Below, piece by piece: positions 42,316 to 43,250 of a stretch of 46,045 bases of DNA. Under the pieces are notes generated by a model that was not told the origin of the DNA, did no database searches, and worked only from the letters and a program-made list of their open reading frames with translations. The stretch lies in contig CALVSI010000008.1 in the NCBI GenBank assembly GCA_944358985.1, positions 1 to 46,045 of the forward strand, read 5' to 3'. The position numbers and the translations under genes are program-made. Numbering within the stretch: position 1 is the stretch's first letter; every line of letters begins with the position of its first letter. This DNA comes from an uncultured Bacilli bacterium (GTDB lineage Bacteria > Bacillota_I > Bacilli_A > RFN20 > CAG-826).

Positions 42316-42345
42316 AGAAGTTAGGCTGGTTAGGGCCCGACTTCT
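42316..42345 (+). other. hairpin between rpsU and tRNA-fMet
   Basis: AGAAGTTAGGC (42316-42326) pairs with GCCCGACTTCT (42335-42345), 11 positions with one mismatch and one G-T, loop of 8. No T-run follows. It ends 5 bp before the tRNA, so it may be a processing signal or an mRNA end structure. Confidence 0.55.
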
Positions 42346-42350
42346 GATAT

Positions 42351-42427
42351 CGCGGAGTAGAGCAGTCTGGTAGCTCGTCGGGCCCATAACCCGGAGGTCG
42401 GTGGTTCAAATCCGCCCTCCGCAACCA
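42351..42427 (+). tRNA. initiator tRNA-fMet (CAT)
   Basis: Acceptor CGCGGAG/CTCCGCA has the initiator-specific C1-A72 mismatch. The anticodon stem has three consecutive G-C pairs (CGGG/CCCG) below loop CCATAA, anticodon CAT. CCA encoded at 42425-42427. Confidence 0.96.
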
Positions 42428-42438
42428 AACGAAATCAT

Positions 42439-42462
42439 GATCGCAAATGTGCGATCTTTTTT
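42439..42462 (+). terminator. terminator after tRNA-fMet
   Basis: GATCGCA (42439-42445), AATG loop, TGCGATC (42450-42456), then TTTTTT. Confidence 0.88.
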
Positions 42463-42497
42463 AACCACCGACCACCTAGAACCATAATTTGTCACTA

Positions 42498-43250
42498 TTA
42501 ACTATAAAATCTGCTAGCTATATAGCGTAAATCTGCTTCGTAGTTTGGCCAATAAAAATCTATTAAATGTCTATTATTTTCGTTTTTAATTTCTTTTCCT
42601 ATGTATCTAGCGTGTGGTCTAAACATTATTGGTCCTATATGTAAATTAGATATGAATTTTTGATTTTTAACTTCTATAAAACGATAAATTTGTTTTTTTG
42701 AAACAACAACGCCATAATTAACATCACCAAAGTACACAAAATCCGCTGGTGTATTCTCTTCAAATGTTCCCTTAAAGATTACACGATTAACAATTGTTTT
42801 TATAAATTCTTTATTCGAGTTTAATTCTTCATTCGCTTCGCTAATTCTTTCACGTAAACGATATCTCAACTCTTCGTATGGCAATCTTTCTTTTCCGCTT
42901 CCATCCATAGTTAAATCGCCATATTGATACAAAAGAATAGTTTGTTGAGTTTTCTTTGAAATATTTAATTCACGCATGAATAAAATAAATTTTTTGATAT
43001 TTTCTTGATGAACATCTTTCGACCTTCCACTTTTCATTGAAACATATTTTGTTATTCCATTGTATGTTATGGAAAAGTCGGGTTTTATATAGCCGTCGAT
43101 GAGTTCGCATTTGAGTTTTTGTTTTTCATCAACAAATCCAAAAATTTCCTTAACCATAAATTTTAAGTTTTGATTTAAATCGCATATTTGCTTGTCGTTT
43201 AATGCCAAAACTAGTTCTTTTTCTTTTAACAATCCAACATTATCTTTCAT
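42498..43250 (-). CDS. hypothetical protein with restriction-endonuclease-like motifs
   Basis: 250 residues, not firmly recognised. The segment IKPDFSITYNGITKYVSMKSGRS (about 53-75) has an Asp, then S-M-K spacing like a PD-(D/E)xK nuclease core, followed by VHQENIKKFILFMRE. The C-terminus is rich in aromatic and basic residues (FRPHARYIGKE). No signal or membrane segment. SD AGGAGGGGG precedes ATG 43250. Solitary, without a methyltransferase, and adjacent to tRNA-fMet on the opposite strand, which suggests accessory DNA at a tRNA site. Nuclease activity is a hypothesis. Confidence 0.55.
   Translation of the reverse strand: MKDNVGLLKEKELVLALNDKQICDLNQNLKFMVKEIFGFVDEKQKLKCELIDGYIKPDFSITYNGITKYVSMKSGRSKDVHQENIKKFILFMRELNISKKTQQTILLYQYGDLTMDGSGKERLPYEELRYRLRERISEANEELNSNKEFIKTIVNRVIFKGTFEENTPADFVYFGDVNYGVVVSKKQIYRFIEVKNQKFISNLHIGPIMFRPHARYIGKEIKNENNRHLIDFYWPNYEADLRYIASRFYS

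Follow-up and report, generated by a model that had tools for sequence, protein, structure and literature searches.

Solitary AciI-type endonuclease-like genes lie beside tRNA genes bracketed by inverted copies of tRNA sequence in Bacilli

tRNA genes are known integration sites, and their 3′ flanks are common sites of insertion; tRNA-fMet is also the host gene of the intron-encoded I-Ssp6803I. SegB, a free-standing homing endonuclease of phages T4 and T6, adjoins tRNA genes of many isotypes and cuts within them, according to the excerpted text of PMC13096335. Among restriction enzymes, AciI is listed with the single-chain enzymes that have two catalytic domains (excerpt of PMC4081073), and solitary restriction endonucleases with no linked methylase are documented (Ershova et al, 2012; excerpt of PMC3488263). 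Template switching, in the excerpted text of PMC8794818, creates and maintains hairpin arms with multi-base compensatory changes.

Here, we analysed a 46,045-nt stretch of DNA from an uncultured Bacilli bacterium (the window; contig CALVSI010000008.1), in which a first-pass annotation had noticed an 11-base inverted match to tRNA-fMet followed by a solitary accessory gene with a PD-(D/E)xK-like pattern. The window observation is one case of a family-wide pattern. In the literature searched, which covered few subscription papers, we found no description of nuclease-linked inverted tRNA copies.

The tRNA-fMet locus and its AciI-type gene

The window carries an intact tRNA-fMet gene with a CAT anticodon (42,351–42,427, plus strand; ARAGORN), its initiator type being taken from the first-pass annotation and the sequence rather than from a tool. 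Used as a query, the tRNA-fMet sequence matched only itself in the window genome (G000). It is followed by an intrinsic terminator (42,439–42,462, plus strand; GATCGC-AAATGT-GCGATC-TTTTTT, read directly from the sequence), with the stem at 42,439–42,456 preceding TTTTTT. Past this stem, AACCACCGACC (42,463–42,473) is the exact reverse complement of GGTCGGTGGTT (42,396–42,406), as first reported, and each piece occurs once in the window. The exact 11-mer is the core of a longer pair, with arms at 42,393–42,410 and 42,459–42,476 that are 89% complementary over 18 nt, so that the downstream copy (minus strand) corresponds to tRNA positions 43–60. This match reached p ~0.005 against 200 dinucleotide shuffles of the tRNA–gene spacer, the floor of the test; about 20 nt separate its end from the stop codon of the gene on the minus strand. 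A second inverted copy, overlooked at first, lies upstream of the tRNA: GGTTAGGGCCCGAC (42,328–42,341, minus strand) is the reverse complement of tRNA positions 27–41 (42,377–42,391) with one base missing. Its local alignment score is 23, and upstream scores of at least 20 were found at 3/105 and 4/146 tRNAs in two gene-less control sets. Both copies are the same in a genome of the same genus (G003), though the bases flanking the upstream copy and adjacent to the downstream one differ.

The minus-strand gene (42,498–43,250) starts with ATG and encodes a 250-aa AciI-type endonuclease-like protein, as judged from profile searches and alignment. The PADLOC REase_II profile matches the window protein (E 4.8e-15) and 12/12 family members. 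By hhalign (99.5%), the family profile aligns to residues 8–255 of the 527-aa protein QKE76209.1 from pAciIRM, an Arthrobacter citreus plasmid; this protein is probably R.AciI, given the plasmid name and gene content. The window protein, which aligns to the N-terminal half only, is thus a half-size AciI relative: homology extends over the catalytic unit, and its 250 aa fall short of a ~527-aa chain with two catalytic domains. Residues E10, K56, D58, S71, K73, H81 and E83, among others, are invariant in 12 aligned family sequences, in which the motif reads D…SxK (D58, S71-x-K73), with S replacing the D/E of the textbook D…(D/E)xK. The nuclease character proposed in the first-pass annotation is thus supported, as a predicted restriction-enzyme type, by the REase_II and hhalign profile matches. 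Searches of Pfam, NCBIfam and PHROGs with the window protein gave no match, nor did phmmer against PDB sequences, and an AlphaFold prediction from three rows (window, L019 and L020) had a pLDDT of 47, too poor for fold comparison.

The gene is solitary, as had been noted: by eye, no methylase gene lies among the ORFs beside it. The m5C methylase profile PF00145 had no match in the window genome, one of the 5/10 gene-bearing genomes searched that lack it. A cognate methyltransferase, linked or elsewhere in the genome, as expected of a Type II restriction–modification (R-M) system, was thus not found in a search confined to m5C methylases.

Family members also occur in other arrangements. Family genes stand in tandem at L143:1492–2891, and in L088/L096 two family units share one open frame of 792 aa, reminiscent of the AciI layout with its two domains. 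One relative lies in the Terrisporobacter phage record PP197246.1 (30,662–31,393), near two DNA methyltransferases, and another on the Staphylococcus kloosii plasmid NZ_CP027847.1 (2,038–3,597), beside two m5C methylases; both look like parts of ordinary R-M systems. Viral contigs held no relative of the window protein, of the phage relative or of L052, and gave one weak 27-residue match to L084. In the 5′ regions of several family genes, L064, L068, L072, L108, L138 and L141 among them, a palindrome of the type CCTCTAT…AGTAGGAGG recurs; it overlaps the Shine-Dalgarno and a -10-like stretch, and might serve as an operator or as a hairpin that blocks translation.

Linkage to tRNA genes and dependence of the copies on the nuclease gene

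The gene is present in 15/58 relatives, in 79/279 genomes of the order and in 27/395 genomes drawn from the class, in line with the accessory character proposed for it. Within the genus, G000, G003 and G004 carry it, and G001 and G002 lack it. G002 shares the tRNA-fMet and glycosyltransferase neighbours, with neither the nuclease gene nor inverted tRNA copies (scores 14 upstream and 12 downstream), so that gene and repeat are not core in all relatives. Presence is therefore patchy at a conserved site, with gene-less alleles in close relatives. In place of the nuclease gene, the G002 site holds another accessory ORF, Fic-like by eye (L023:2747–3817).

Family genes are linked to tRNA genes well beyond the window. 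A tRNA gene lies within 450 nt of the family gene in 58/98 relatives, deduplicated on their last 60 residues only and phylogenetically dependent. For loci with both flanks of at least 450 nt, the count is 55/86, against a generous chance expectation of 6% (binomial p ~1e-45, the loci not being independent). Among the isotypes are fMet, Met, Pro, Glu, Gly, Phe, Arg, Leu, Trp and Ile. The nuclease lineages group according to tRNA type: on a tree of 93 rows, from which the fused L088 and L096 and proteins under 150 aa were left out, tRNA type changes 20 times over 59 labelled rows, when 300 shuffles needed at least 34 changes. Some loci without a called tRNA are accounted for by a tRNA missed by ARAGORN (L075), a tRNA cut by the contig end (L141) or followed by Ns (L073), and tRNA-like copies with no called tRNA nearby are present at L066, L085, L086, L090 and L108; the others examined (e.g. 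L100, L104, L109, L113, L137 and L142) showed nothing convincing. At two contig ends, family genes adjoin 5S rRNA (L011:1–84 and L092:86–236).

The inverted copies depend on this gene. The own-tRNA inverted copy beats shuffles at p<0.05 in 43/53 testable spacers, and its score exceeds the 99th percentile of cross-locus pairs in 39/58. A downstream copy (score of at least 20, within 130 nt) accompanies 50/62 gene-adjacent tRNAs versus 11/79 others, and 9 of these 11 come from loci that hold the gene elsewhere; 12/62 gene-adjacent tRNAs have no downstream copy at this threshold. Upstream, a score of at least 20 is reached at 27/105 tRNAs near the gene versus 3/105 controls. The sets of 62, 105 and 58 have rows in common, and the control tRNAs come from loci returned best-scoring first, not from a random draw. 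A wider set of 146 control tRNAs, all distant from the gene, yielded 6 downstream and 4 upstream copies; the repeat is tied to both the tRNA and the gene (downstream, 50/62 gene-adjacent versus 6/146 distant tRNAs). Copies at other tRNAs showed no excess in gene-bearing (5/76) over gene-less (5/70) genomes, and therefore the effect is local, in cis. Action in trans on other tRNAs is unsupported by these counts.

The first-pass annotation had suggested a scar of insertion at the tRNA. An accessory gene adjoining a tRNA 3′ end does recall an integrative element; the classical scar of such an element would repeat the 3′ end of the tRNA in direct orientation, and an integrase would be expected with it. 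Here, the copies are inverted and are present on both sides of the tRNA, 0/58 loci have a direct copy of their own tRNA that exceeds the control threshold, and no integrase-like ORF is seen by eye near the window gene. Beyond the far side of the nuclease gene, inverted copies above threshold number 1/58 and direct ones 0/58. Orientation and two-sidedness thus contradict a classical integration scar, which we regard as highly improbable.

Other cassettes use the same sites. In G131 (contig 27), a ~1.36-kb insert (L265:14009–15366), which has a terminator of its own and a 258-aa ORF unmatched in Pfam and PHROGs, sits exactly between the CCA end of tRNA-Phe and an older terminator–copy–nuclease unit. 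In G147 (L270), a similar terminator follows the same tRNA, and the site carries other sequence; the nuclease and the downstream copy are absent, and a relic with a score of 26 lies upstream. Together, G131 and G147 suggest that cassettes stack at tRNA 3′ ends. The gene could be an ordinary accessory or defence restriction-type gene for which a tRNA-linked hot spot is a safe harbour, the copies having another cause. The alternative cassettes of G002, G131 and G147 and the relatives in R-M-like plasmid contexts and one phage record are consistent with this; however, the other cassette at the G002 fMet site has no copies, the copies depend on the nuclease family, and nuclease lineages sort by tRNA type, which makes the explanation unlikely. 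More improbable still, the copies may be decoy attachment sites that divert tRNA-integrating elements, with the nuclease destroying incomers. Sequence of the anticodon arm is well preserved, and G131 is an example of a cassette entering such a site, but the anticodon loop itself is poorly kept, and the G131 insert entered between tRNA and nuclease cassette despite the arms.

Architecture and divergence of the inverted copies

The tRNA is bracketed by inverted copies of its two halves. The 26 upstream copies are kept best at about −13 to −2 from the anticodon, and the 57 downstream copies at about +6 to +15, with ~94–98% kept at the best positions between +8 and +15; the anticodon loop and the T-loop are poorly kept. 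The split thus falls near the anticodon, with the 5′ half mainly in upstream copies and the 3′ half mainly in downstream ones. It is not strict: downstream copies in L132 and L144 span nearly the whole tRNA, and upstream copies in L016 and L132 run past the anticodon. Operons mostly obey the same rule, with 5′ parts upstream or in the 5′ spacer and 3′ parts downstream. In the Ile–Asn operon L057, Ile 16–33 and Asn 14–30 are found upstream, and Ile 42–61 and Asn 33–52 downstream; the Asn–Glu operons L065 and L067 also conform, except that both halves of Glu lie downstream. Inner tRNAs of operons are often without a copy. Arm distances are variable, ~77–106 nt downstream in most loci and 33–140 nt upstream, and no helical phasing of the arms was seen.

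The copies track changes in their tRNA. Across 78 same-tRNA locus pairs, a locus's own copy follows the tRNA difference in 228 cases, lags in 21 and does otherwise in 27, counts that are inflated because copies were aligned to their own tRNA and pairs are not independent; at protein identities of at least 50%, 62 differences were followed, with 7 lagging and 7 other. In L124 and L132, whose copies are homologous, the copies have mismatches in common and nevertheless follow changes in the anticodon stem. Identity to the tRNA has a median of 0.78 over 83 copies, and none of the 52 copies at least 30 nt long is near-perfect (≥95%). Transitions make up 91 of 308 mismatches, not different from one third (p 0.16), so that mismatches look saturated.

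Preserved complementarity to the tRNA might reflect control at the RNA level, the copies pairing with the tRNA or its precursor in an antisense or alternative structure, and some upstream copies do lie in transcribed spacers (L131, Asp/Phe; L074, Arg/Pro). In several loci, however, the upstream copy precedes a promoter-like element (5′ of -35/-10 in L008, L106, L111 and L119; promoters judged by eye) and the downstream copy lies beyond the terminator, with the gene in either orientation relative to the copy. Transitions also show no G-U-type (wobble) strand bias (42 antisense- versus 49 sense-compatible, p 0.53). RNA-level control is thus improbable. The same observations disfavour the pairing of read-through RNA with the T-arm that had been envisaged for the window, as some upstream copies lie outside the apparent transcription unit and the T-loop is poorly kept in downstream copies.

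A further explanation holds that the copies are functionless scars, left in nuclease carriers by fold-back repair of breaks or stalls at the tRNA gene. Synthesis would have been primed at terminator or leader hairpins, and later template switching between arms would preserve the match to the tRNA in parts, as reported for hairpin arms in the excerpted PMC8794818. The arms can be read as scars because the tRNA–terminator spacer is mirrored as well in several loci (e.g. L132, L114 and L072; by eye), because L092 mirrors the 5S rRNA end and spacer past the terminator, because copy lengths and distances vary, because units repeat in L077 and because G147 keeps an upstream relic with the nuclease absent. 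In L077 (586–800), units of a terminator arm plus an inverted fMet piece are repeated downstream of tRNA-fMet, the nuclease being displaced to ~0.9 kb. Against scars, no long copy is near-perfect, and the mismatches shared by L124 and L132 persist while matched positions follow the tRNA. The saturation of mismatches between blocks kept at ~94–98% argues, rather, for arms kept for a function. We consider scars possible but doubtful.

A homing-like reading and its relation to known systems

Overall, these data agree best with a process that acts on DNA and has the tRNA gene at its centre. Our main reading, to which we give a probability of roughly one in three, is that the AciI-type nuclease behaves like a homing enzyme towards the tRNA gene next to it, and that the inverted halves are fold-back arms or products of repair formed in cis. 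Four elements of this reading are inferred: DNA cleavage by the protein, the tRNA gene as its site, a cut close to the anticodon, and a function for the arms. A solitary half-size nuclease gene would have settled repeatedly beside single tRNA transcription units and would target its neighbour as a free-standing homing endonuclease does a conserved one. The tRNA unit would be bracketed by its 5′-side sequence mirrored upstream and its 3′-side sequence mirrored downstream, meeting near the anticodon, where a cut or nick would allow each single-stranded end to fold back onto the arm of its own side. Such arms could be produced when synthesis at terminator and leader hairpins folds back and switches template, and would be kept because they cap, hide or process the ends, or otherwise spare the resident allele.

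Several observations weigh against this homing-like reading. The resident tRNA is intact, and its anticodon arm is identical in G000 and the gene-less G002, which leaves self-protection unexplained, so that resistance would have to come from elsewhere. The variable distances and imperfect arms (median 0.78) fit scars too, the split is not strict (L132, L144, L016), 12/62 gene-adjacent tRNAs lack a downstream copy, and inner operon tRNAs often have none. We do not class the locus among homing systems because the defining activity of homing is putative here. More tentatively, the pairing of a restriction-type nuclease with an essential tRNA gene might constitute an undescribed selfish or guard locus, in which reverse-complement copies of the two tRNA halves stay complementary to that tRNA, ends formed by the enzyme near the anticodon would fold back on themselves, and the resident allele would be spared or preferentially inherited.

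Recurrence with many tRNAs in related bacteria points to an undescribed partnership between an enzyme and tRNA genes. If the homing-like reading holds, solitary restriction-type nucleases of small-genome Bacilli would repeatedly have essential tRNA genes as partners or targets, with complementary DNA arms kept around these genes. This would bear on the persistence of solitary restriction enzymes without a methylase, on the ways in which homing nucleases can exploit essential RNA genes that have no intron, and on the formation and persistence of quasi-palindromes; it predicts cutting near the anticodon and effects of arm removal.

Compared with known systems, the likeness to AciI (Type IIT) lies in the alignment of the family profile to residues 8–255 of the 527-aa protein, whereas the window gene is one ~250-aa unit with no methylase or controller beside it and a tRNA as neighbour. 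The solitary restriction endonucleases of the excerpted PMC3488263 differ in that the present family has a consistent tRNA neighbour and inverted tRNA copies, features that the excerpt does not mention. I-Ssp6803I is a PD-(D/E)xK-class homing endonuclease, a class likeness that is putative for the window gene; unlike its host gene, the tRNA of the window locus is uninterrupted and has no intron. SegB is similar in being encoded by a free-standing gene that lies with tRNA genes of many isotypes; inverted tRNA copies are not mentioned in the excerpt of PMC13096335. SegB has a GIY-YIG fold and is phage-borne, whereas the window gene is AciI-like and chromosomal.
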